64,000 nt of DNA from Acidobacteriota bacterium. Its GTDB lineage: Bacteria; Acidobacteriota; Vicinamibacteria; Vicinamibacterales; UBA2999. The position numbers were made by a program, and so were the translations under genes. Below are positions 8,170 through 22,606 of this stretch, piece by piece. The stretch lies in NCBI GenBank assembly GCA_030650395.1, contig JAUSDY010000028.1, positions 1-64,000 of the forward strand, read 5' to 3'. The stretch's first letter is position 1. Each line of letters begins with the position of its first letter. Below the pieces are notes generated by a model. The model had not been told where the DNA came from. It did no database searches and saw only the letters and a program-made list of their open reading frames with translations.

Positions 8170-8787
8170 ATGAATCGTCGCCAGTGGGACACGACACTCT
8201 ACAAGCTCGCCGAGCCACAGGCGGGCTACTTCACGGCTGCACAGGCCCTGGAAGCGGGGGTGCTGCAGGTGCGTCTGGCCCAGCTCCATCAACGCGGCGA
8301 CATTGAACGAGTCACACGCGGCGTGTATCGGCTCGCTCGATACCCGATCTCCCCGCTTGGGCAATACATCGAGGCCGCCCTGTGGCCGCAGGTGCGTCGA
8401 CCAGACGCGCACGGCGTGATCTCCCACGAATCGGCGCTCGCGATCTATGGCCTGTCTGACGCAAGCCCGGCCAAAGTCCACCTGACGCTGCCCACGGGGC
8501 TTCGCATCCGCCGCGCCGCGCCGAAGCATCTAGTCCTCCACTATGCGGATCTGAACCCGAGCGACGAGCAGCGCGTCGAAGGCGTTCCGGTCACCACGCC
8601 AGCGCGCGCTATTCGCGACGCCCACGCCAGCCACCTCGGGCCGGCACTCATTCGACAGGCGATTGCAGATGGCCGCCGGACCGGCCACCTCACGCTTGAC
8701 GAAGCCGGCACGCTTGAACGGGAACTGCTTGGGACCAAGCCCCGTCGCCGCGGCGGTCCCGCACGATCACGCGGGACCGCGGCGTGA
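8170..8787 (+). CDS. abiEi: AbiEi-type antitoxin and autorepressor (type IV toxin-antitoxin)
   Basis: 205 residues. The N-terminal winged helix (about 1-65, including YFTAAQALEAG and VTRGVYRLA) is the DNA-binding part. The middle carries SHESALAIYGLSD and LPTGLRIRR, typical of AbiEi-family antitoxins. In type IV systems the antitoxin does not bind the toxin but opposes its effect and represses the operon. The ATG at 8170 has GACTGAGAG upstream and lies 11 bp after the operator. The stop overlaps the start of the toxin gene. The basic C-terminal tail is probably disordered. Confidence 0.88.
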   Translation: MNRRQWDTTLYKLAEPQAGYFTAAQALEAGVLQVRLAQLHQRGDIERVTRGVYRLARYPISPLGQYIEAALWPQVRRPDAHGVISHESALAIYGLSDASPAKVHLTLPTGLRIRRAAPKHLVLHYADLNPSDEQRVEGVPVTTPARAIRDAHASHLGPALIRQAIADGRRTGHLTLDEAGTLERELLGTKPRRRGGPARSRGTAA

Positions 8788-9638
8788 TGGCTTCTCGGAG
8801 GCATCCGACCGGTCCTCCGCCATCGGCGGGTGTACTCGCCAAATACGTACAAGCCTACGCGCGCGAAGCTGGTCTCAGCGAAGGCCGCGTGCGCGGGTGG
8901 ATCTCATACATGGTCATGGCCGGCGCGCTCGAACGCGCCGCCGCAAGCGGGCAACCGCGGTTCACGGTGAAGGGAGGGATCGCCCTCGAACTTCGCCTAC
9001 GCAATCGCGCTCGCGCCACGAAAGATATCGACGTGGTGTTGCAGCACGCGGACGCCGATCTGGCGCGAACGCTCGAAGGCGCTTTGGGCGGTGAGGCGTA
9101 TCAAGGATTCACGTTTCGCCGTAAGGGTGAACCGCTCCTGCTGGACAACGGGGCCGTGAATCTGGAGCTCGCCGTCAGTTACTTAGGCGGCGCATGGACC
9201 ACCATCGCCGTTGATATCGCGCGCGCCGAACCGGGCGAGGCGGAGATCGAATGGTTGCCGGCCATTCCGCTCACAGACGCGTTCGGCATCACCGGGCCTG
9301 TCGATCTTCCGTGCCTGCCACTGCGCCTCCATATCGCGCAGAAGCTGCACGGCATGACCCTGCCGCCACGAGCAGGCAAGCGCAATGAACGGTTTCGCGA
9401 CCTCATTGACCTGCTGCTGATGGAAGAACTGGTGACGGACTACAGGGGACTTCGTGAGGCCTGCGAGGCGGTCTTTGCAAGCCGCGGCACGCACGTTTGG
9501 CCGCCGCCACTCGCGGTGCCGTCCTATTGGATCGAACCATTCGCTCGGCTGGCAGGGGACCTCGACCTACCGGTTGCTGATGCGGAAACTGGGATGACGC
9601 GTGTGCGGGCGTTCGTCGAGCGGATCGTCAACGCTTAG
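8784..9638 (+). CDS. abiEii: AbiEii/AbiGii-family nucleotidyltransferase toxin
   Basis: 284 residues. VKGGIALELRL and TKDIDVVL are the nucleotidyltransferase core (GG loop and Asp-x-Asp metal ligands), HIAQKLHGM supplies the conserved Lys helix, and RFRDLIDLLL the later conserved Asp. AbiEii-type toxins transfer nucleotides, for example to tRNA 3' ends in characterised members; the target here is unknown. Start is either GTG 8784 or ATG 8787; the latter overlaps the abiEi stop by one base (TGATG), implying coupled translation. It probably serves in phage defence or island maintenance. Confidence 0.9.
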   Translation: MMASRRHPTGPPPSAGVLAKYVQAYAREAGLSEGRVRGWISYMVMAGALERAAASGQPRFTVKGGIALELRLRNRARATKDIDVVLQHADADLARTLEGALGGEAYQGFTFRRKGEPLLLDNGAVNLELAVSYLGGAWTTIAVDIARAEPGEAEIEWLPAIPLTDAFGITGPVDLPCLPLRLHIAQKLHGMTLPPRAGKRNERFRDLIDLLLMEELVTDYRGLREACEAVFASRGTHVWPPPLAVPSYWIEPFARLAGDLDLPVADAETGMTRVRAFVERIVNA

Positions 9639-11537: not shown

Positions 11538-11826
11538 CCTTCGCTTGCCTTTCAGGCGAGCTTCGTCTGGGTAAACCACTGATCTTCTGCCAAGCGAAGT
11601 CTGTCTCGCCGAGTCATCGCCGCCTCGGGAGTGGTCCGTTACTCACTTCGAGCAACGCGCCGTTCTTCCTGGAATGTGCATCGCGGCAACGTGGCGTCCG
11701 GAGAGTACAATTCGCTATCTCACTTGTGACCGCCCGACAATCGGACACCACGCCGATGCACGCCCCTTGCTCGAACCGCCAGGCCTCGCCCGGCGCGCCA
11801 GGCGCATCTCCGATGAGACGTACCAG

Positions 11827-13248
11827 ATGAGCCTCAGTCGCAGCGACCCGCGCATTCTCGTGGTAGTCGCGGCCGGCGAGTTCCGCGATGAGCTGGCCAC
11901 GCTGCTGGCCGATCTGGGACCGGTGTTCATCCCCTCCGAGCAGCCTGGTCTGCTCGACTTCCTGACGGAGACGCCGACCCTCCAAGTGGTGGTCATCGTC
12001 GAGTGCGGTGGAGAAACGATGGCGCTCGATCTGCTCAATGCCGCCAAGCGCCGCCGTGCGCAACTCGCGGTGTTCGTCCTGAGCGACAAGCCGACGATCG
12101 ACCACGCCACCGAGGCGATCCGCCGCGGGGCCGAGGATTTCGTACCCATTCCGCTGTCCGGGGATCTGCTGCGCAAGGAGATCGACCGCGCGCTCGAGAC
12201 CGCGGACCTGCGCGACAACATCGCGCACCTGCGCAGCCTCGTCTCGACGGCCTACGGCTTCGACCAGATCGTGAGCAACTCGCCGCGCATGCGGCCGGTG
12301 TTCGAGCGCGCGCTCGCTGCCTCGCGCAGCGACACGCCCGTGCTCATCATCGGCGAGACGGGAACAGGCAAGGAACTCCTGGCGCGAGCCATTCACGCCA
12401 ACAGCCGCCGGCGCGATCGGCCGTTCGTCCCCGTCAACTGCGCGGCGCTGCCGCGCGACCTGATCGAGAGTGAGTTGTTCGGCCACCGCCGTGGCGCCTT
12501 CTCAGGCGCGCACGCCGATCATCAGGGACTGTTTGTGACGGCACATCGCGGCACGATGCTGCTCGACGAAGTCGGCGAACTGCCGGCCGAGGCCCAGGCA
12601 AAATTTCTGCGCGTGCTGCAGGACGGCGAGGTCCGGCCGGTCGGAGGCCTCGACAGCCGGAGGATCGATGTCCGCGTGATCGCCGCCACGAACCGGAGCC
12701 TCGCCGACCTCCGAGCCGGCTCGCTGCGCCAGGACCTGTTCTTCCGCCTCTCCGTGCTCGTCATCGAGGTGCCGCCGCTGCGGGAACGCGTCGACGACAT
12801 TCTGCGGCTCGTCCATCACTTTCTGGCGCGCTACAGCGACCGCGACGCTCCGCGCCTGAGCGGCCTCACGCCCGACGCGCTCGACGTGCTGACACGGTAT
12901 TCGTACCCCGGCAATGTCCGCGAACTCGAAAACCTCGTGCACAGCCTTTGCACCACGCTGCCACCGGACCGCACCGAGATCCAGGCAGCAGATGTGCTGG
13001 GCTGCCTGCAACGTCAGGGCGCAAGTCCGCCGCCTGCCGCACCCGAGCCGCCCAAGGACCTCACGCTGAACCTGCGGGGGCTGGAAACCTGGGCGCTCAA
13101 GCTGGCCTTGGAGCGGACCGGGGGTAACAAGAGCCGGGCGGCGCAACTCTTGGGGATTTCCAGAGACAGCCTGTATCGAAAGCTGCATGAACTCGAACTG
13201 TCCGATATTACGACAGGTAACATAACTAGCCATAAAATAAAGAGTTAG
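11827..13248 (+). CDS. Sigma-54-dependent activator (NtrC family) with degenerate receiver
   Basis: 473 residues: receiver-like domain (about 1-125), AAA+ domain with Walker A GETGTGKE, sigma-54 contact loop GAFSGA (a Ser variant of GAFTGA) and DEVGELP Walker B, then a Fis-type HTH (GGNKSRAAQLLGISRDSLYRK) near the C-terminus. The receiver lacks the phosphorylatable Asp: the beta-3 end reads VVVIVECGG, with Glu near that place, so control may not be by phosphorylation. The frame is open upstream to 11674, but alignment of the receiver favours ATG 11827. It precedes a -24/-12 promoter and the electron-transfer operon, its likely target. Confidence 0.88.
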   Translation: MSLSRSDPRILVVVAAGEFRDELATLLADLGPVFIPSEQPGLLDFLTETPTLQVVVIVECGGETMALDLLNAAKRRRAQLAVFVLSDKPTIDHATEAIRRGAEDFVPIPLSGDLLRKEIDRALETADLRDNIAHLRSLVSTAYGFDQIVSNSPRMRPVFERALAASRSDTPVLIIGETGTGKELLARAIHANSRRRDRPFVPVNCAALPRDLIESELFGHRRGAFSGAHADHQGLFVTAHRGTMLLDEVGELPAEAQAKFLRVLQDGEVRPVGGLDSRRIDVRVIAATNRSLADLRAGSLRQDLFFRLSVLVIEVPPLRERVDDILRLVHHFLARYSDRDAPRLSGLTPDALDVLTRYSYPGNVRELENLVHSLCTTLPPDRTEIQAADVLGCLQRQGASPPPAAPEPPKDLTLNLRGLETWALKLALERTGGNKSRAAQLLGISRDSLYRKLHELELSDITTGNITSHKIKS

Positions 13249-13273
13249 CTTGTATGTGTCAGATATTATGACA
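13199..13273. promoter_or_regulatory. Two matching 17-bp sites: candidate activator binding sites
   Basis: TGTCCGATATTACGACA (13199-13215) and TGTCAGATATTATGACA (13257-13273) match at 15 of 17 positions and have TGTC/GACA palindromic ends. They lie about 120-180 bp upstream of the -12 box at 13388, the usual distance for enhancer sites of NtrC-type activators. The first lies inside the end of the activator gene itself. Confidence 0.65.
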
Positions 13274-13374
13274 GACAGAGTCTGGATTGGAGCGTGAGCC
13301 GAGGCGGGCCACGGCACGGCGTAACCCCTTGTCAATAAAGCTTGTATCGACGCACTTAGTCTGTTCCTCTCAAG

Positions 13375-13390
13375 TGGCGGCTGGCGTGCA
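13375..13390 (+). promoter_or_regulatory. Sigma-54 (-24/-12) promoter of the electron-transfer operon
   Basis: TGGCGGCTGGCGTGCA fits the TGGCACG-N4-TTGCA pattern with exact GG-N10-GC spacing (GG 13376-13377, GC 13388-13389). Transcription would start near 13401, before the GGGAGG ribosome site and ATG at 13441, which rules out the earlier in-frame ATG at 13399. Confidence 0.7.
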
Positions 13391-13440
13391 TTGATTCAGT
13401 GGGGCTCGTTGAAATGCCCCTCTGTATTCGGGAGGTACGC

Positions 13441-14862
13441 ATGGCCGCACTACATCAGCCGCTTCTCAGGCTCGGTCTTCTCGGACTCGTCGTTGGCACG
13501 CTCGTCGCCCTGCTGGTTCCCGCCACTTCGGCCGAGGCTATTCCCGCCTGGTCGAGGAAGTACCAGACGAGTTGCTCGACGTGCCACGCGGCCTTTCCAA
13601 AGCTGAACTACTTCGGCAAGGCGTTCCGCAACAACGGCTACCGGTTTCCAGGTGGTGAGGACGAGTCGGCCACAAAGGACCCGCCCGTCATCCTGGGTGC
13701 CGAAGGCTACAAGAAGCTCTTTCCCCGGGCGCTGTGGCCCTCGCACATTCCGGGCGGCGTGCCGCTTGCCGTTCGCGGAATCTCGCGATTCAGCACGTAC
13801 GAAGACGCGCGGACGACGACCTTCGAGTTTCCCCACGAGTTCGAGGTGCTCACGGGAGGGACGCTGGGAGAAACTTTCTCGTTCTTCGGCGAGATTGAGA
13901 TCGAGAACGAGGGCAACGAGAACGAACTGGGAATGGACCTCGTGCTGCAGTACGACCCGCGTCCCTGGCTGCACGTCCGCATGGGGTCGGTCAGTGTCCA
14001 TCCCTTCAACGACGGTCTTCGTCTGACCGCGGCGCACTACACCCCGTACGACACGCGGACGACACCCGGCTCGGTGACGCTGCGGGTGCCGAACCCGAAT
14101 GGGTCGACGCCGACCTTGTCCATCAGTTCCACCACCGCGGAAGACCGCTGGAGATTTCGCGAAGGACAGCCCGGCATCGAGGTGTGGGGGGGCCGAAACG
14201 GGCCGAAGGACAAGGGTGGGGTGACCTGGGGGGTCGGCATCGCCAACGGACAGGGCCTGATCGACGCCAACGATCGCAAGGACGTCTTTGCGCGGGTGGC
14301 CTACAAGTTCGGCGGCTACGGTGAGCTCGGCGGCGGCGAACTGTCTCAAGACCTCGAGTTCTGGCGGGACGACTCGTTGAAGGTGGGCGTCTTCACCTAC
14401 GTGGGCAAGTCCACGAACGTCTACGAAGGGAGGACGGTGGCGCTCAGCGGAACTCCGGGCGCGGGCATCGTCACCGTCTCGGCCGACAGCCAGATCGAGA
14501 ACGAGTTCAACATCGTCGGCATGGAGTTCGACTGGTGGTTCCGGGATCTCAACCTGTTCGGACTCGTCTTGCGCCAGCATGATGAGAATCCGCGCGGCAC
14601 GGGCGAGACGATCGACACGGACAGCTGGTTCGTGGAAGCCGATTACACCGTCTATCCCTGGCTCATCGGGATCCTCCAGTACGGCGCAAGTGCCCAGGAT
14701 TTCAGCGTGCGACCCGATCCCCAGACGCAGAAGTTTCTGGTTCCCGCCGTGGTCTTCATGGCGCGCGCCAATGTCAAGTTCACGCTCGAGGGCCAAGTCA
14801 GGCTCGACGATCCGGGCAAGGGGCACAACCGCTTCCTGGTCGGGATCGACTTCGGCTTCTAG
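13441..14862 (+). CDS. Cyc2-like outer-membrane porin-cytochrome fusion
   Basis: 473 residues. Sec signal peptide ending near AEA33. Immediately after it comes IPAWSRKYQTSCSTCHAAFP with one heme motif, CSTCH (45-49), then PKLNYFGKAFRNNGYR. The remaining about 400 residues alternate aromatic and polar residues as in beta-barrels and end in Phe (GIDFGF), the outer-membrane insertion signal. A single c-heme at the start of a barrel is the plan of Cyc2, the Fe(II)-oxidising fused cytochrome-porin, whose heme segment (Arg-x4-CxxCH...P, then FG..F...GY) is similar. The match is by pattern only; other porin-cytochromes are possible. Start chosen by the GGGAGG ribosome site and the sigma-54 promoter. 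Confidence 0.7.
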   Translation: MAALHQPLLRLGLLGLVVGTLVALLVPATSAEAIPAWSRKYQTSCSTCHAAFPKLNYFGKAFRNNGYRFPGGEDESATKDPPVILGAEGYKKLFPRALWPSHIPGGVPLAVRGISRFSTYEDARTTTFEFPHEFEVLTGGTLGETFSFFGEIEIENEGNENELGMDLVLQYDPRPWLHVRMGSVSVHPFNDGLRLTAAHYTPYDTRTTPGSVTLRVPNPNGSTPTLSISSTTAEDRWRFREGQPGIEVWGGRNGPKDKGGVTWGVGIANGQGLIDANDRKDVFARVAYKFGGYGELGGGELSQDLEFWRDDSLKVGVFTYVGKSTNVYEGRTVALSGTPGAGIVTVSADSQIENEFNIVGMEFDWWFRDLNLFGLVLRQHDENPRGTGETIDTDSWFVEADYTVYPWLIGILQYGASAQDFSVRPDPQTQKFLVPAVVFMARANVKFTLEGQVRLDDPGKGHNRFLVGIDFGF

Positions 14863-14871
14863 GAGGATGCG

Positions 14872-15465
14872 ATGCGAACGAACTGGCTGACTGGTGTGGC
14901 GCTGGCCGCGGCGACGCCGCTCTTGTTGACAGCGATGGCGCTCCAGACGGCTGGCGTGTCTGGCTCGGTCACGGCGAAAGGGCTTCGGACGAATGCCGGC
15001 ATCGTCGTCAGCCTGCAGGCGCCGGGGACGAACGTGACGCCGCCGGCCAAGCCGCCCGAGGTGGATCAGAAGGGTATGGTCTTCATACCGCACGTCATGG
15101 CCGTCGTGAGGGGCACGGCCGTGCGGTTTCTCAACAGCGATGCCGTGGCGCACAACGTATTCTCGCCGGAAGGCAAGTACAACCTGGGCACCTGGCCGCA
15201 GGGGGAAACCCGCGAGCACATGTTCGATAAGCCGGGGGTCTATACCCAGCTCTGTCGCGTGCACCCGGAGATGGAGTCCTTCGTCGTCGTCCTCGAGACG
15301 CCGTACTTCGCGGTCAGCGACCGGGAGGGTAAGTACGCGATCGCGGCTGTGCCGCCGGGGAAGTACACGCTCGTCGCCTGGAGCGAGAGACTCAAGAGCG
15401 TCAAGCAGGAGGTGGTGATCGAGTCCGGCAAGACCCTGACCGTCGATCTCGCCATGGCCCGATGA
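14872..15465 (+). CDS. Exported cupredoxin (plastocyanin-like) with C-terminal CarbopepD-like domain
   Basis: 197 residues. N-terminal signal peptide, then a cupredoxin fold. Copper ligands are visible: His in VAHNVFSP and the C-x2-H-x2-M cluster CRVHPEM, consistent with a type 1 copper site. The last about 60 residues (YFAVSDREGKYAIAAVPPGKYTLVAW) match the carboxypeptidase-regulatory-like beta-sandwich that often follows such cupredoxins. It starts 10 bp after the porin-cytochrome with GAGGATGCG upstream. A periplasmic electron carrier between the outer-membrane cytochrome and the inner-membrane complex is the natural reading, comparable in role to rusticyanin (inference). Confidence 0.85.
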   Translation: MRTNWLTGVALAAATPLLLTAMALQTAGVSGSVTAKGLRTNAGIVVSLQAPGTNVTPPAKPPEVDQKGMVFIPHVMAVVRGTAVRFLNSDAVAHNVFSPEGKYNLGTWPQGETREHMFDKPGVYTQLCRVHPEMESFVVVLETPYFAVSDREGKYAIAAVPPGKYTLVAWSERLKSVKQEVVIESGKTLTVDLAMAR

Positions 15466-15480
15466 GGCCGGAGGATTCTG

Positions 15481-17379
15481 GTGGACGCCCAGTACCACGC
15501 GAGCCTTCCGACACCACGTTACTTCCTGGATCTGATCAGCTGCCGTTCCGGGTGTCCCGTGCGCACCAACGCCGGCGCGTACGTCCGGGCGGTCGCGGAA
15601 GGCGACTACGAGAACGGGTACCGCATTGCACGGGCCCCCAACCCGTGGGCGTCGGTCTGTGCGCACGTCTGCGCGCATCCCTGCGAGACGCGTTGCCGGC
15701 GTGGCACCATCGATCAGCCCATCTCGATCCGTGCACTGAAGCGGACGCTCACTGAACGTTTCGGCCCTGAGTCGGTCGCGGCCTCAATCGACGAGCCGGC
15801 GCCCCTCGGCGCCGCGGCGCGCGTCGGCGACCAACCGGCCCGCGTGGCCGTCGTCGGGGCCGGTCCGGCGGGGCTGGCCTGCGCCCACGATCTCGCCTTC
15901 CTCGGGTACCGCGTGACGGTCTTCGAGGCAGCGCCGGTGGTGGGCGGCATGCTGGCACAGGGCATTCCCGAGTACCGCCTGCCGCGCGACATCATTCGCG
16001 CCGAGATCGAACGCACCGTTCGCATGGGCGTCGACGTCAAGACGAATTGGCGCCTCGGTCGCGACTTCACAGTCGCCGATCTGATGCGTAACGGCCACGC
16101 CGCCGTGTTCCTGGCCTTCGGCGCGACGCGCGGCCGTGACCTGCAAGTACCCGGCGCGGAGCTCGACGGCGTGATCAACGGTGTCGACTTCCTCCTCAAC
16201 GCGAACCTCGGCTACCAGGTCTCCCTCGGCTCGCACGTCATCGTCGTGGGCGGCGGGAACGTGGCGATCGACGTCGCCCGCACCGTCCTGCGCTACGGCG
16301 CGCGCGAGGAGCAGGGGCTCATGCCGCCGGGTGCCGAGGCGCTGCTCGAATCGTGGGGCTACGACAACACCTTGATCGACGCTGCGCGCACCGCGCTTCG
16401 GCTGGGCGCTCGCCGCGTGACGGTCGTCTCGCTGGAGCGCCGGGACGAAATGCCGGCCTCGCCGGAAGAGATCGCGCAGGCCGAAGAAGAAGGCATCCGG
16501 TTCGTCGGTGGTCGCGGCCCGAAGCAGTTCATCGGCCGTGATGGAAAAGTCACCGCCCTGAAGACCGTGGCGGTGGCCTCGGTGTTCGACGCGCAGGGCC
16601 GCTTCAACCCGACGTTCGTGCCCGGCAGCGAAAGCCAAATCGAGGGGGACACGATCGTTCTCGCCATCGGGCAGAAGCCGGACGTGGCGGCGCTCGCCGG
16701 CGACCCGAACATCGCTATCACCGCGCGTGGCCTGGTTGAGGTTGACCCGCACACGCTGGCGACCACCGCCCCGGGCGTCTATTGCGGAGGCGACCTGGCG
16801 TTCGGCCCGCGCGTCATCATCGACGCCGCGGGCGACGGCAAGCGTGCCGCGCTCGCCATCCACCGGCACCTGGGCGGCGCCGCCCTCGACCACGCTCCCA
16901 TGCGCTTCCGCCGCCTGTCGCTCAGCCGCTGGGCGGAAGACTACGATCGCATCCCGCGCCACGACGTGCCGTGCCTGCCCGTACAGCGACGGGTCGGCTT
17001 CCGCGAAGTCGAAATGGACTATGCCGAGGCCGACGCCCGGGCCGAAGGCCGTCGCTGCCTGTGGTGCAACGTCAGCCCGATCTTCGACTCGGAGAAATGC
17101 ATCCTCTGCGGCGGCTGCGTCGACATCTGTCCCGAGAACTGCCTGAAGCTCGTGCGCGCCGATCGGCTGACCGGCGTTGCCCAGCTCGAGGCGCTGCGCG
17201 AACGGCTCGGCGCCTCGCCGGACGCCGGGGTCATTTTGAAGGACGAAGATCGCTGCATCCGGTGCGGCCTGTGCGCCGACCGGTGCCCCACCGGCGCCAT
17301 CACCATGGAGCTGCTCGAGGTGGACAACAGCCCGGTCGCCTCGCTGCAGCTCTTCGCCGAGGAGATGGAGGGCGCATGA
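15481..17379 (+). CDS. GltD-like FAD/NAD(P) oxidoreductase with C-terminal 2[4Fe-4S] ferredoxin
   Basis: 632 residues from GTG 15481. The N-terminal Cys-rich domain (CRSGCP..., CAHVCAHPCETRCRRG) is the FeS domain of GltD/NfnB-type flavoproteins. VVGAGPAGLACAHDL is the FAD Rossmann motif and VVGGGNVAIDVARTV the pyridine-nucleotide motif. The C-terminus has two ferredoxin clusters (CILCGGCVDICP and CIRCGLCADRCP) plus an extra CLWC. Such proteins move electrons between NAD(P)H and FeS or quinone partners. It is encoded inside a Rieske/cytochrome b operon and overlaps the Rieske gene by four bases, suggesting a subunit or docking partner of that complex. No membrane helix is seen. Confidence 0.9.
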   Translation: MDAQYHASLPTPRYFLDLISCRSGCPVRTNAGAYVRAVAEGDYENGYRIARAPNPWASVCAHVCAHPCETRCRRGTIDQPISIRALKRTLTERFGPESVAASIDEPAPLGAAARVGDQPARVAVVGAGPAGLACAHDLAFLGYRVTVFEAAPVVGGMLAQGIPEYRLPRDIIRAEIERTVRMGVDVKTNWRLGRDFTVADLMRNGHAAVFLAFGATRGRDLQVPGAELDGVINGVDFLLNANLGYQVSLGSHVIVVGGGNVAIDVARTVLRYGAREEQGLMPPGAEALLESWGYDNTLIDAARTALRLGARRVTVVSLERRDEMPASPEEIAQAEEEGIRFVGGRGPKQFIGRDGKVTALKTVAVASVFDAQGRFNPTFVPGSESQIEGDTIVLAIGQKPDVAALAGDPNIAITARGLVEVDPHTLATTAPGVYCGGDLAFGPRVIIDAAGDGKRAALAIHRHLGGAALDHAPMRFRRLSLSRWAEDYDRIPRHDVPCLPVQRRVGFREVEMDYAEADARAEGRRCLWCNVSPIFDSEKCILCGGCVDICPENCLKLVRADRLTGVAQLEALRERLGASPDAGVILKDEDRCIRCGLCADRCPTGAITMELLEVDNSPVASLQLFAEEMEGA

Positions 17380-17861
17380 AGACCCCGAAGCCGCCTGAGG
17401 CAGGCGCAAGCAAGGAGTCGACGCGACGGCGATTCCTCCTCACGACCGGCACGACGACCGTCGTCGCGGGCGTGGTCGGCTTCCTGGGCGCGACCGCCCG
17501 GTTTCTGTTTCCCAACGTGCTCTACGAGCCGCCGAGCCGTTTTCCCGTGGGCGGGCCCGATGATTTTCCGACGGGCTCGCCGACCTTCCTGCCGAATCAG
17601 CGGCTCTTCGTCTTCAACAGCGATGCTGGCTTCTACTCCATATCGTCGATTTGCACGCACCTGGGCTGCAACGTCAATCACGTGGCGAGCGGCGGCTTCG
17701 CCTGCCCGTGCCACGGCAGCCAGTTCGATGCGAACGGCCAGGTGATCCATGGTCCGGCGCCGCGGCCGCTGGCGTGGTTCGGTCTGAGCTTGTCGTCCCG
17801 TGGCGAGCTGGTCGTCGACCAGCGGCGTATCGTGGAACCCGACTATCGGTTCAAGGTGTGA
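17376..17861 (+). CDS. Rieske [2Fe-2S] protein
   Basis: 161 residues. A Tat-like RRRFLL motif and one N-terminal membrane helix anchor it. The cluster ligands are canonical: CTHLGC and CPCHGS, followed by the Pro loop GPAPRPL. The ATG overlaps the flavoprotein stop (ATGA), so translation is coupled. With the cytochrome b gene that begins one base after its stop it forms the core of a quinol:cytochrome c (bc-type) complex in the cytoplasmic membrane. Confidence 0.95.
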
Positions 17862-17862
17862 A

Positions 17863-19119
<1,257 letters not shown>

Positions 19120-19131
19120 GGAGAGGCGCCG

Positions 19132-21126
19132 ATGCGAGCTCCGCAAACCGCTCCGCCCTGGATGCACCTGGCGTTCGCGGCGCTCAGCGTCGCGTTCCTC
19201 GCGATCTTTTCCTGGGTGCTCCTGCAGGAATCGTTCGCCGAATGGCGCACCCGGCAGGCCGAGTTCCTCGCAATCGAGCGCCAGGTGAAGGACCCACACG
19301 CGCTCGCGCTGGCCGCGCACGTCGGCGGGATCCGGCAGATCTGGCTGCGTGACATCGATCTCGTCGATCGCTGCACGACGTGCCACCTGGGGACCGACGA
19401 CCCGGACTTTCAGGTGGCGAAGCAGCCGTTTGCCACGCACAGCGGGACGTGGCTGACGACGCATCCGCCGGATCGGTTCGGCTGCACGATCTGCCACGGC
19501 GGTCAGGGCGAAGCCACGAACTACCGCGACGCGGCGCACCAGCCGGTCGCGTACTGGCCCGAGCCGGTGCGACCCCGCGAGCTGATCGAAGCCAACTGCG
19601 GCGTGTGCCACCGCGAACGCGCGCCGGCCGAAGCCTTTCTGCTCGCCGAGGGACGGCAGCGGATTGCCGCCGCCGGCTGCGTCGCCTGTCACGATTTGCC
19701 CGGCTTCTCGCCGGACGAGATCCAGGCGCCGCACCTGTCGAGCGTGGGCTACAAGGTCCGCCCGGACTGGGTGCGGAGCTGGCTCGCCGATCCGAAGACG
19801 TATCTTCCGCGAGCCCGGATGCCGAACTTCCGCCTGCAGAAGCAGGAGATCGAAGACCTGAATGCGTTCCTGCTCTCACAACGCGAGACCGCGCCCCTCG
19901 ACTCGTCCGGCGTCGACTGGTCGAAGGCCGACTCCGAACACGGACGCATCCTGTTCGGCGAGGCGCGGTGCCTGTCGTGCCACATGGTCGACGACCGCGG
20001 CGGATTGCTCGGCCCGGATCTATCGAGGGTGGGCAGCAAGGTTCGCCGTGACTGGCTGTTTAGTTTCATCAAAGATCCGATGCACGACCAACCAGACACG
20101 CGCATGCTGCGCTACCGGTTCTCGGACGTCGAGATCCGCGACGTGGTCGCGTACCTGACGACGGACCTCGTCGACCCGGAAGCGCCGGAGAATGCGCCGG
20201 CCGCCGGGTACCTCGACCCGAAGCAGGTCGCCGCCGGCCGCGACACGTTCGTCAAGCACGGGTGTTTCAGTTGTCACCGATTCAACGGCCTGACGCCGAC
20301 GGCGAAGATCGGACCCAGCTTGATGGCGGTCGGCAATCGGGTCGTCGAACGGCCCGAGTTCGGATCCATGAACGTCGTGCCGACACTGGCGAACTGGCTC
20401 TACCTCAAGCTGCGCCAGCCGGACTCGCTTGCCGAAGAGTCGCGCATGCCGACCTTCAACTTCACCGAACCGGAAGTCGCCTCGGTGGTGGTCGCGCTCC
20501 TGAGCGTGCGCAAAGCTGACTTCCCGGCCTCGCGGGTGACGCGCGCGCCGAGCTCGACACCCTACACGCCGCAGGGCGCGTTCGGCGCGCTCGTGTCGCG
20601 CTACCGCTGTCTGTCGTGCCATCAGGTGGGGGGATCGGGAGGAACGCTCTCGACCGTGCCGCTCGATCGCATCGGCAGCCAGCTCCAGCGGAGCTACCTC
20701 GTCTCGTACTTGCAGAACCCGTCGGCGGTGCGCGTGAGCATCGAAGAGCGCATGCCGTTCTTCCACATGACGCCGCAGGAGGCGGCGACGATCGCCGACT
20801 ACGTTGGCGCGGTCCTCGTGGACGACTCACTCGAGCGCCCGTTCACGGCGGACACCGAGGCCGCGCGGCGGGGCGAGCAGCTCTACCGCCGTCTCGGCTG
20901 CCATGGCTGCCACATCATCGGCGCGAGCGGCGGCTACGTCGGACCCGACCTGAGCGACACGGGCCATCGGCTCGAGGCGGGGTGGATTGAGCGCTGGCTC
21001 GCCGCGCCGCAGACGTGGAAGCCCGCGACGCTCCAACCCGACTACGGGCTGAAGGCCGAGGACCTGCGCGATCTGACGGCGTACCTGATGACGCTGACGA
21101 CGTCCGCGCGTGGGAGAAACCCGTGA
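19132..21126 (+). CDS. Membrane-anchored octaheme c-type cytochrome
   Basis: 664 residues with a membrane helix near 12-30 and eight CxxCH motifs: CTTCH, CTICH, CGVCH, CVACH, CLSCH, CFSCH, CLSCH and CHGCH. Several are followed by GPDLSRVG-like and MP-type blocks of mono-heme cytochrome c domains, so the protein is a string of c-type domains, not a hydroxylamine-oxidoreductase-type octaheme fold. Its position after cytochrome b suggests that it replaces cytochrome c1 and carries electrons along the outer face of the membrane. Confidence 0.9.
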   Translation: MRAPQTAPPWMHLAFAALSVAFLAIFSWVLLQESFAEWRTRQAEFLAIERQVKDPHALALAAHVGGIRQIWLRDIDLVDRCTTCHLGTDDPDFQVAKQPFATHSGTWLTTHPPDRFGCTICHGGQGEATNYRDAAHQPVAYWPEPVRPRELIEANCGVCHRERAPAEAFLLAEGRQRIAAAGCVACHDLPGFSPDEIQAPHLSSVGYKVRPDWVRSWLADPKTYLPRARMPNFRLQKQEIEDLNAFLLSQRETAPLDSSGVDWSKADSEHGRILFGEARCLSCHMVDDRGGLLGPDLSRVGSKVRRDWLFSFIKDPMHDQPDTRMLRYRFSDVEIRDVVAYLTTDLVDPEAPENAPAAGYLDPKQVAAGRDTFVKHGCFSCHRFNGLTPTAKIGPSLMAVGNRVVERPEFGSMNVVPTLANWLYLKLRQPDSLAEESRMPTFNFTEPEVASVVVALLSVRKADFPASRVTRAPSSTPYTPQGAFGALVSRYRCLSCHQVGGSGGTLSTVPLDRIGSQLQRSYLVSYLQNPSAVRVSIEERMPFFHMTPQEAATIADYVGAVLVDDSLERPFTADTEAARRGEQLYRRLGCHGCHIIGASGGYVGPDLSDTGHRLEAGWIERWLAAPQTWKPATLQPDYGLKAEDLRDLTAYLMTLTTSARGRNP

Positions 21127-21581
21127 CACAACGTCGCCACGTGATCGGGATGTGGGTCGGTCTCGTCGTGGCTGTGGCCAGCGGTTGCGGGCGGCCGGGC
21201 GAAGGGCCTCCCGCGGATCCCCTGATGGACGTCTTCCGGCACCAGGCACAGGAGGAGGGCCTCACGCGCATACAGACCGACGGCAAGCGTCTCTTCGCGC
21301 ACTACTGCGTGACGTGCCACGGCGAGGCCGGGACGGGCGACGGGCAGAACGCCTACAATCTGGAGCCGAAGCCGCCCGACTTCCAACAGTCGCTGCCGCT
21401 CCACGCTGTGCCCTACCGCCGGCAGATCATCGAAAGTGGCACAGCGGCGGTCGGACGCTCGGCGCTCTGCCCGCCCTGGGTCCGCAACTTGTCGGCGACA
21501 CAGATCGACACGTTGCTCGCGTATCTGGACGCGCTCGCGAAACCACCGGCGGTGCCGGGGCCGGGCGGAAGCAAGCAGTAA
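21123..21581 (+). CDS. Lipoprotein mono-heme cytochrome c
   Basis: 152 residues from GTG 21123, overlapping the octaheme stop by four bases. The N-terminal hydrophobic run ends in VASGCG, a lipobox with Cys about 22, followed by a Pro-rich tether. One heme site, CVTCHGEAGTGDG, begins a class I cytochrome c domain (LEPKPPDF, ALCPPWVRNLS, then a C-terminal helix IDTLLAYLDAL). It closes the operon and could be the soluble-side acceptor or donor between the octaheme protein and the cupredoxin or a terminal oxidase. Confidence 0.88.
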   Translation: MTQRRHVIGMWVGLVVAVASGCGRPGEGPPADPLMDVFRHQAQEEGLTRIQTDGKRLFAHYCVTCHGEAGTGDGQNAYNLEPKPPDFQQSLPLHAVPYRRQIIESGTAAVGRSALCPPWVRNLSATQIDTLLAYLDALAKPPAVPGPGGSKQ

Positions 21582-21655: not shown

Positions 21656-21689
21656 TGCCAGTTGGCATGTTGTATAATGCCTTTTGGCA
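21656..21689 (+). promoter_or_regulatory. RES-Xre promoter with two tandem operators
   Basis: TGCCAGTTGGCA (21656-21667) and TGCCTTTTGGCA (21678-21689) are two TGCC-N4-GGCA palindromes spaced 22 bp centre to centre, two helical turns, so a repressor would bind the same DNA face. A perfect TATAAT (21673-21678) lies between them. AGGAG follows at 21689-21693, before ATG 21699. Confidence 0.75.
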
Positions 21690-21698
21690 GGAGTTGCT

Positions 21699-22136
21699 AT
21701 GACAGCAGCCGAATACGTCATCGACGTTCTGGGCGGACCGAAAGTGTTCAAGGGTCGGACGCTACCGAATGCGACGGAGCTCCGGGATCGAGTCAGAACG
21801 GGACTCCCGTACCAATCGCTGGAGTCCATCCGCGGACGCCTCAATTTGTCGCTGCCGGAAGCGGCCATCGTGCTCCATGTGCCGCTCCGAACCCTCGCGC
21901 GACGCCGGCACGGCCGGAAGCTTGACGCCGACGAGTCCGATCGCCTCTACCGCCTGGCACGCATCGCGGGGCAAGCTGTGGCGGTCTTAGGCACGGAGGA
22001 GAAAGCGGCGACATGGCTCAGACGGGCCAATCGAGCGCTGAATGGTGAAGTTCCGCTCGGGTTGCTGGACACCGACCTGGGCGCCCGCCAGATCGAAGAC
22101 GTCCTGGGAAGGATTGAACACGGAGTTGTGAGCTAG
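21699..22136 (+). CDS. Xre/MbcA/ParS-type antitoxin of a RES-Xre module
   Basis: 145 residues. The N-terminal helical part reads as an Xre-like HTH (ESIRGRLNLSLPEAAIVLHVPLRTLARRR), and the C-terminal half (ATWLRRANRALNGEVPLGLLDTDLGARQIEDVLGRIEHG) is the DUF2384 toxin-binding domain with the conserved W-x2-PN-like and P-L-LL patterns. These antitoxins block RES toxins and repress their operon. ATG 21699 is chosen for its AGGAG site. The stop overlaps the GTG of the toxin. Confidence 0.9.
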   Translation: MTAAEYVIDVLGGPKVFKGRTLPNATELRDRVRTGLPYQSLESIRGRLNLSLPEAAIVLHVPLRTLARRRHGRKLDADESDRLYRLARIAGQAVAVLGTEEKAATWLRRANRALNGEVPLGLLDTDLGARQIEDVLGRIEHGVVS

Positions 22137-22606
22137 TGCGCGTGTGGCGCATTGCCACTGCGGCGCACGCAGCGTTCGACGGTGAAGGGGCGCGGCGGTA
22201 CGGCAGCCGTTGGACGCCAAGAGGCGTTGCCGCCGTGTACGCCTCGGCAACGCTGTCACTCGCCGCACTCGAGCGCTTCGTTCACACCGACCCCGACTTG
22301 GAACCCGCCGACCTCGTGGCGATGCTCGTTGATGTGACCGACGGCTTCCCTATTCATTCACTCGAGATCGGACAGCTTCCAGCAGACTGGCGCCATTACC
22401 CTGCTCCGGATGCACTGGGCCGCCTCGGCGGAGAGTGGTTAGCGGGAGCACGCACGGCGATTCTGGCGGTTCCATCCGTGGTGATTCCGCATGAATGGAA
22501 CTACGTGCTCAATCCGAAGCACGCGGACTTTCGTCGACTGGCCATCGGCCAGCCGGAGCCGTTTAGCTTCGATCCACGAATGCGGGCGAAGCGAAGGCCG
22601 CGATGA
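22136..22606 (+). CDS. RES-domain NAD+-degrading toxin
   Basis: 156 residues from GTG 22136. RES signature: WR at 4-5, GSRWTPRG (R25), VYAS (Y35) and LAALE (E46); these Arg, Tyr and Glu residues line the NAD+ site in characterised RES toxins, which phosphorolyse or hydrolyse NAD+. The later segment has the conserved N-x-LNP (NYVLNPKH) and FDPR. One-base overlap with the antitoxin stop indicates coupled expression. Confidence 0.9.
   Translation: MRVWRIATAAHAAFDGEGARRYGSRWTPRGVAAVYASATLSLAALERFVHTDPDLEPADLVAMLVDVTDGFPIHSLEIGQLPADWRHYPAPDALGRLGGEWLAGARTAILAVPSVVIPHEWNYVLNPKHADFRRLAIGQPEPFSFDPRMRAKRRPR

Follow-up and report, generated by a model that had tools for sequence, protein, structure and literature searches.

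The closest studied relatives of the inner-membrane machinery considered here are two complexes of the anammox bacterium Kuenenia, Kuste4569-4574 and Kustd1480-1485, in which a Rieske protein, a b6-type cytochrome b, a subunit IV (SUIV) part, multihaem cytochromes c and a GltD-like flavin adenine dinucleotide/iron-sulfur (FeS) subunit are encoded together. Their Rieske proteins, Kuste4569 (PDB entry 9rk4) and Kustd1480 (9rk3), belong to complexes with a putative NAD(P) oxidoreductase and have measured potentials of +303 mV and +335 mV, respectively (PMC12954380). On the side of the outer membrane, Cyc2 and Cyt572 are fused cytochrome-porins, and the Cyc2 criteria given in PMC8406198 are an AXPXFAR[Q/K][T/Y] motif, a CXXCH motif, a PXL motif, 16 strands and a length of at least 365 residues. 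The MtrAB, PioAB and MtoAB conduits instead pair a decaheme cytochrome with a porin, and the ext cluster of Geobacter (extHIJKLMNOPQS) joins a porin to a Rieske protein, cytochrome b, a lipoprotein c and multihaem cytochromes c (PMC5877670). Here we describe a seven-gene operon from an Acidobacteriota bacterium (assembly GCA_030650395.1, contig JAUSDY010000028.1), located in a stretch of 64 kb that is referred to below as the window. The parts of this operon are of known kinds, and what appears to be new, judging from the sequences, is the connection of a flavo-b6c complex to a conduit in the outer membrane that can be exchanged; a search of the open-access literature, which leaves out subscription papers, gave no description of the operon as a whole.

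The operon consists of genes for a one-haem barrel (BAR), a cupredoxin (CUP), a GltD/NfnB-like oxidoreductase (FAD), a Rieske protein (RSK), a cytochrome b (CYB), an octaheme cytochrome c (OCT) and a lipoprotein c (LPC), working names that are used throughout (Table 1, in window coordinates). The seven genes span 13441-21581, all on the + strand, with intergenic spacings of 9, 15, -4, 1, 12 and -4 bp in that order. An initial annotation, made from the sequence alone, had proposed this gene order and these product types, and the family scans agree with it, the barrel being recognized by its motif and its structural model; the spacing of 1-41 bp given there needs correction, as the measured gaps are tighter (-4 to +15 bp).

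Conservation of the operon was followed in two sets of genomes. In a phylum sample of 297 Acidobacteriota genomes, full-length octahemes (>350 bits; the next match had 208 bits) were found at 29 loci in 28 genomes from 13 families. A one-haem barrel lies near the octaheme at 27 of the 29 loci, 21 being of the window type and six of a second type described below (three before and three after the octaheme), and the two loci without a barrel, in genomes G098 and G203, sit at contig ends. The FAD gene is likewise found at 27 loci; it is missing in the second copy of G005, and the G098 locus is cut. The closest operon in the sample, in G143, has the identical order, is also accompanied by the activator gene discussed below, and encodes a cytochrome b with 69% identity. 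BAR itself gave matches (E<=0.001) in 85 of the 297 genomes, many of the weaker ones covering the haem region only. For the cross-phylum set, an octaheme alignment was compared with a genome collection, which yielded at least 588 stretches with at least 571 confirmed relatives, and the best 80 were analysed. By their labels, these 80 loci (numbered with L) include Acidobacteriota, Bacteroidota, Ignavibacteria, Desulfobacterales, KSB1, Planctomycetes, a Brocadiaceae bin and a bin named Dehalococcoidia; the operon is carried, for example, by Geothrix campi SG10 (L158). Counts are based on the 54 informative loci in which the octaheme is flanked by at least 6.6 kb upstream and 450 bp downstream; the other 26 were excluded. 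Rieske and cytochrome b genes were each found near the octaheme in 53 of these 54 loci, FAD and cupredoxin genes each in 52 and lipoprotein c in 49; a one-haem barrel lies nearby in 48 loci, 37 with the window type and 11 with the second type alone. The exact window order BAR-CUP-FAD-RSK-CYB-OCT-LPC is kept in 32. L173, which is among the 54, contains a partial octaheme and lacks all other operon genes. Among 50 loci with a window-type barrel, the pairwise distances correlate with those of the octaheme at r=0.89 for the barrel, 0.88 for the cupredoxin, 0.93 for FAD and 0.91 for the Rieske protein, and none of 1000 permutations gave values as high. The barrel-octaheme correlation shows, at the sequence level, co-inheritance rather than contact, as shared ancestry alone can yield such values. 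A chance juxtaposition of seven genes is argued against by the conservation of the set, which was found in 13 families within the phylum sample as well as in further phyla.

The inner-membrane core was compared with the Kuenenia complexes in several ways. The best PDB matches of RSK are 9rk4 (4.2e-22) and 9rk3 (1.1e-20), with the next one at 3.3e-15. Two genomes of operon relatives contain further complexes of this kind: L215 (genome of L144) has the order Rieske, FAD, b6, a 251-amino-acid frame in the SUIV place, a six-haem and an eight-haem protein, and L213 (genome of L145) the order Rieske, b6, FAD and SUIV-like before the contig ends. The two orders are those of the two Kuenenia clusters, as far as the text of PMC12954380 names the genes. 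The same text names His43/Arg247 and His62/Arg266/Lys267 for a proposed extra haem b as a link towards the FeS clusters in the NAD(P) subunit; the cytochromes b of L213 and L215 have these residues (counted from the first Met), and His41, Arg231 and Lys232 of CYB align with them. His41 is present in all 99 aligned cytochromes b (three bc1-type rows of 102 were set aside, and some loci stand under two names). The FAD subunit of the window is 38-40% identical to those of L213 and L215, with a largely kept cysteine pattern and one N-terminal cysteine missing in L213. The spacing of the haem-b ligands in CYB is b6-like (110/124 and 211/226), the Qo motif APWY was found in 72 of the 73 loci that match WYFLxxQE, and the Rieske pattern was found in 74 of the 80 loci, ending as CPCHGSxF in 70 and with xY in 4, the other six being short or broken loci without a Rieske match. 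CYB lacks the haem c_N cysteine, reading YTFGLG against FTWCMGG in L213 and L215; among the 99 cytochromes b, a cysteine at this position occurs only in L144 and L145, that of L123 being one column off.

Taken as sequence relationships, these data indicate that the core is a variant of the anammox Rieske/cytochrome b complexes bearing an NAD(P) oxidoreductase, and it is filed as a variant rather than a member because the c_N cysteine is missing. Further differences from the Kuenenia complexes are the fusion of cytochrome b with SUIV, the presence of the barrel and the cupredoxin in the operon, another gene order and the lack of an HAO-like gene in the operon. The earlier assignment of the GltD-like protein as a pyridine-nucleotide module fits this relationship. 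Its "bc complex" is better described as being of the b6 type, with fused SUIV and no haem c_N cysteine. FAD-less versions of the operon also exist (L116/L152, L144, L145 and L139) and provide a natural basis for judging what NAD(P) coupling contributes. Further Rieske/b complexes of Acidobacteriota that include a GltD-like gene but have 5, 6 or 7 CxxCH motifs and other gene orders were encountered as well (L081-L084, L086-L095, L097-L099, L119 and L120); one of them, L099, sits in the window's own genome.

BAR has no match to any Pfam or NCBIfam family, and a comparison with PDB sequences gave nothing significant (best E 0.033). Its structure was modelled by AlphaFold2 from 20 sequences (the window protein and 19 relatives) with moderate confidence (predicted local distance difference test score, pLDDT, 60.8; predicted template-modelling score, pTM, 0.64), the haem region lying below 50. 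The model has 16 strands of at least three residues after an N-terminal helical haem region. In a Foldseek search it resembles porins including OmpT, OmpU and PorB, with a best E of 8.3e-12 and template-modelling (TM) scores of 0.45 by query and 0.66 by target; among the Foldseek matches listed, the TM by query length for BAR-porin pairs is 0.38-0.46. The haem region reads AIPAWSRKY-QTS-CSTCH-AAF-PKL, in which AIPAWSRKY differs from the Cyc2 motif by two conservative substitutions. BAR agrees with the Cyc2 criteria in having one CXXCH, a PXL about four residues downstream and a length of 473 amino acids and, in the moderate-confidence model, a porin of 16 strands. BAR shares with Cyc2/Cyt572 a single CxxCH, PXL, 16 predicted strands and a length above 365, and its motif, of the form A-X-P-X-(F/W)-(A/S)-R-(K/Q)-(Y/T), differs in the two substitutions; the likeness is judged by the published criteria. 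The exact Cyc2 motif is present in 22 of 49 motif-bearing barrels near the octaheme (L121-L200), the 49 having been preselected by a looser form of the motif. On the basis of its motif and predicted 16-strand topology, BAR may be called Cyc2-like, which places it with the porin-cytochrome-like proteins and gives it, as a prediction, the barrel that the initial annotation had expected. A plasmid search with the window barrel gave one match, covering 11% of the BAR length. In one relative from the phylum sample (G258, L042), the barrel gene at 13183-14466 on the - strand has an in-frame TAG just past the haem motif in an otherwise complete operon, representing a pseudogene, an error or recoding.

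Alternatively, BAR could be a porin for a substrate, its haem having a structural role, in a line that reduces an oxyanion; such a porin has been suggested in the case of ExtI from the ext cluster (selenite/tellurite). The overall likeness of the two gene sets and the similarity of CYB to ExtP (NF040969, 2.4e-80) and ExtQ speak for this explanation. CYB, however, falls below the curated ExtP cut-off (269.2 against 290 bits), cytochrome b and SUIV are split between ExtP and ExtQ, and the ext cluster contains a rhodanese and 10- and 12-haem proteins that the operon lacks, no FAD subunit being listed for it (PMC5877670). BAR and ExtI were set side by side by description only. Since the Cyc2-type motif of BAR and the Mtr-type replacements described next point to electron exchange, we consider an oxyanion porin very improbable.

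The first gene of the operon seems to be replaceable. The second barrel type carries A[VL]PS[YF]ARQT followed by CxxCH and is related to the window type by profile comparison (98.9%); its model, of low confidence (pLDDT 56.8), has 16 longer strands and one three-residue strand and matches porins. The plasmid search with this barrel gave nine records with 28.6-37.1% identity over 90-99%, including Acidiphilium cryptum and Acidithiobacillus ferrooxidans, a lead, not proof, hinting from sequence similarity that second barrels are Cyc2 relatives. The octaheme had no match on plasmids in the same kind of search. Plasmid relatives of the second barrel in Acidiphilium, Caballeronia and Acidithiobacillus (L225, L226 and L227) lie near genes for high-potential iron-sulfur proteins (HiPIP) or c-type cytochromes, the Caballeronia one adjoining both, and these are possibly mobile electron-exchange genes. 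Neither barrel type was found in 6 of the 54 informative loci (L126, L132, L143, L146, L173 and L178). In L143 (Bacteroidota), a DmsE/MtrA-family decaheme (TIGR03508, 257.6 bits against a cut-off of 192.2) and a porin of the MtrB/PioB kind (TIGR03509, 358.1 bits against 240.05) directly precede the cupredoxin. In L126, from an acidobacterial metagenome-assembled genome (MAG), the cupredoxin is directly preceded by genes for an MtrB-like porin, cut by the locus end and sharing 33% identity with its L143 counterpart, for a seven-haem protein and for a decaheme of the OmcA/MtrC family (TIGR03507, 459.6 bits, cut-off 209.3). In these two loci, where no one-haem barrel is found, genes of the MtrAB/PioAB/MtoAB kind, decaheme plus porin, stand before the cupredoxin. 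As a control, the 80 loci were all compared by tblastn with five Mtr proteins, which gave MtrB-like matches only in L124, L126 and L143, that is, in two of the six barrel-less and one of the 48 barrel-bearing informative loci; MtrA-like matches were additionally obtained in L181 and L192. In L124, a window-type barrel follows the operon and an MtrAB-like pair is divergent from the cupredoxin. L132, L146 and L178 showed no conduit in the stretches scanned, where another octaheme, a sigma-54 activator with a two-component pair, and a TonB-plug protein were found; the second octaheme copy of L132 (1278-4732, a Bacteroidetes MAG) lies with a four-haem homologue upstream of the complex. Although few, these replacements, as read from the genes, make an electron conduit a more probable role for the first gene than a solute porin.

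In the mechanism that we propose, BAR would exchange electrons with a partner outside the cell and pass them to periplasmic CUP and the c haems of LPC and OCT, which would connect to an inner-membrane flavo-b6c complex of RSK, CYB, OCT and FAD. There, a high-potential side (Rieske, copper and c haems) would join at the quinol site a low-potential side made up of haems b, an interface haem, four likely FeS clusters, the flavin and NAD(P). In the preferred direction, Fe(II) or another surface donor would feed BAR and CUP, part of the electrons going to an oxidase and part being pushed uphill, by way of the complex, to menaquinone and NAD(P)+. The assembly of the seven proteins into one physical chain, the interface haem and the direction of flow are what we infer; the architecture and the extracellular electron link are well supported, whereas the direction is not. 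Accordingly worded, the earlier claim of an extracellular electron-uptake or disposal line with a pyridine-nucleotide module stands in its architecture, its NAD(P)-type module and its extracellular link, and its direction is unproven. A Rieske protein near +300 mV and a copper protein would be poor donors to Fe(III) oxides but good acceptors from Fe(II) at neutral pH. By analogy, uptake agrees with the high potentials to be expected of copper and Rieske centres and with what has been reported of most Cyc2 proteins tested. The window's genome contains two haem-copper oxidase genes that score above the Pfam cut-off. We give even chances to one electron line across both membranes that runs as uptake.

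Several observations weigh against this reading. In the 11 loci having only the second barrel, it follows the octaheme in nine, outside the first place, and precedes it in two, and the estimate for uptake was lowered because this later position weighs slightly against a fixed entry slot. Only three loci of the 80 contain MtrB-like genes, and in L124, which is among the three, they stand beside an operon with a barrel. The full-length octaheme was found in none of the four other sampled genomes of the window's genus, a patchy distribution. The extra histidine of cytochrome b is kept in relatives without FAD (L116, L144 and L145) and is thus not specific to NAD(P) coupling; its association with the FAD subunit was rejected as proof of a haem-to-FAD route for this reason. 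Calvin-cycle autotrophy is unsupported and is not counted in favour of uptake: the genome has a single RuBisCO-family match, a frame cut by a contig end for which OiaX is the best family (202.6 bits, cut-off 700), other carbon-fixation routes not having been searched. The neighbour of this frame resembles D-apionate lactonase (512.5 bits, cut-off 750), and the stretch in question (L221; G000:C44, 508-10726) carries these lactonase- and OiaX-like genes of apiose catabolism, both below their cut-offs, beside transporter-like genes.

Geothrix is an Fe(III)-reducing genus, and its presence among the relatives and the MtrC-type decaheme of L126 both fit export, another point against uptake. Here the same line would run in reverse: menaquinol would be oxidized with bifurcation, one electron passing through haems b and FAD to NAD(P)+ and the other through Rieske, octaheme and cupredoxin to a surface or high-potential acceptor (Mn(IV), O2 or nitrite), with BAR as the exit. 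Bifurcation is the published proposal for the Kuenenia complexes, and the rarity of the c_N-spot cysteine, present in just 2 of 99 cytochromes b, would fit a compromised Q_N site considered in the same source (PMC12954380); the Cyc2B isoform is described as acting in Fe(III) reduction (PMC10715153). A high-potential Rieske/copper chain would nevertheless be unable to reduce most Fe(III) oxides at neutral pH, and versions without FAD exist (L152, L144, L145 and L139). We regard export as a real possibility that falls clearly short of even odds.

BAR-CUP pairs without the complex were seen at 9 of the 20 loci of one barrel survey, some on short contigs, and the barrel does not need the complex, which also weighs against a single line. 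Together with related complexes that lack BAR (e.g., L081, L087, L098 and L099), these pairs would suit two adjacent but separate modules under shared control, with BAR-CUP as an autonomous outer-membrane redox pair and the flavo-b6c complex balancing intracellular NAD(P) and quinone with an oxidase. The adjacency of the genes over several phyla, the other surface conduits in two barrel-less loci and the co-inheritance of barrel and octaheme make this arrangement improbable. In the boldest reading, which leaves the direction of flow aside, these genes would encode a machine found in many bacteria and contained in a single operon, whose outer-membrane conduit can be exchanged (one-haem porin-cytochrome, second Cyc2-like barrel or Mtr parts) and is coupled to an NAD(P)-linked, electron-bifurcating or confurcating b6c complex. 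The cytoplasmic NAD(P)H pool would then be set by redox partners outside the cell, with no need for complex I and complex III as separate steps, a prospect to which we give a little less than one chance in two.

An activator gene of the sigma-54 enhancer-binding type lies directly upstream of the operon. Its product has about 150 residues ahead of the AAA+ domain; this N-terminal domain gave no Pfam receiver match and may be a degenerate receiver. The exact pattern TGTC-N9-GACA occurs in the 64 kb only twice, as the two near-identical palindromes of Table 1. The relative L034 has an activator homologue (57%) in the equivalent place and one such palindrome, TGTCAGAAGATCTGACA, in the equivalent gap, and L150 has a TGTCCGA half-site, a kind of 7-mer found 0.1-0.4 times per kb. 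The -24/-12-like box of the window is no better than chance, since 0.26 boxes as good, with GG/GC kept, were expected in the 192-bp gap and one was seen. Among 54 upstream regions of relatives (a set different from the 54 informative octaheme loci), boxes with at most one mismatch were found in six against 0.73 expected, being perfect in L146, L151 and L152; other operon copies have LuxR- and Crp-type regulators nearby. Sigma-54 control as a general trait of the family is not supported, these boxes being enriched but rare. For the window operon, judged by its sequence, such control is likely, as it is supported by the adjacent activator gene and the twin palindromes, not by the box. Of the sigma-54 control behind a -24/-12 promoter proposed earlier, the part that survives is thus the activator with its two candidate sites.

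Table 1. The operon and its regulatory features in the window
Feature	Position	Strand	Characteristics
Sigma-54 enhancer-binding activator (AAA+, Fis-type helix-turn-helix)	11827..13248	+	Sigma54_activat 4.7e-62; ATG at 11827 or in-frame upstream at 11674
Palindrome TGTCCGATATTACGACA, candidate activator site	13199..13215	.	TGTC-N9-GACA; inside 3' end of activator gene
Palindrome TGTCAGATATTATGACA, candidate activator site	13257..13273	.	TGTC-N9-GACA; in gap before operon
Weak -24/-12-like box TGGCGGCTGGCGTGCA	13375..13390	+	TGGC-N8-TGCA; 3/10 mismatches to TGGCAC-N5-TTGC
BAR (outer-membrane one-haem barrel, Cyc2-like)	13441..14862	+	Signal-like N-terminal helix; single CxxCH at residue 45; 16-strand barrel predicted
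CUP (cupredoxin)	14872..15465	+	His-Cys-His-Met type-1 copper pattern; Copper-bind; CarboxypepD_reg tail
FAD (GltD/NfnB-like NAD(P)/FAD oxidoreductase)	15481..17379	+	N-terminal Fer4_20; Pyr_redox_2; two C-terminal Fer4 stretches
RSK (Rieske)	17376..17861	+	Rieske family match; CTHLGC / CPCHGSQF
CYB (b6-type cytochrome b, SUIV part fused)	17863..19119	+	Cytochrome_B plus C-terminal part; His110/124/211/226; extra His41; R231/K232; APWY; no c_N cysteine
OCT (octaheme cytochrome c)	19132..21126	+	Four Cytochrom_C stretches; 8 CxxCH; one N-terminal hydrophobic segment
LPC (one-haem lipoprotein c)	21123..21581	+	Cytochrome c match; 1 CxxCH; lipobox-like N-terminus

Some neighbouring genes were recorded in passing. 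In the window, an Xre-like antitoxin and RES-domain pair (21684-22606) lies directly downstream of the operon, and an AbiEi-like/AbiEii type IV toxin-antitoxin pair is found at 8170-9635. Among the relatives, a family of about 470 amino acids with an apparent signal peptide and no Pfam match above the cut-off follows the operon in 16 loci (e.g., L182:7536-8939), and in a palsa acidobacterium (L181, 14703-21693) genes for 5-, 19- and 13-haem proteins and a cytochrome b561-like gene lie about 2 kb downstream of the operon.

Fe(II) oxidizers must drive high-potential electrons uphill to NAD(P)H, and the wiring for this is known for few organisms. The operon suggests that cells may couple electrons outside the cell directly to internal reducing power, with the genes for a surface conduit, a carrier and an NAD(P)-linked complex being passed on together as a unit in bacteria recorded from soil, groundwater and peat. 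It makes testable the direct coupling of bc-type complexes to NAD(P), as proposed for anammox bacteria (PMC12954380), and also the question of which uncultured acidobacteria exchange electrons with minerals, for which the octaheme would serve as a marker gene that finds such operons whichever conduit is used.

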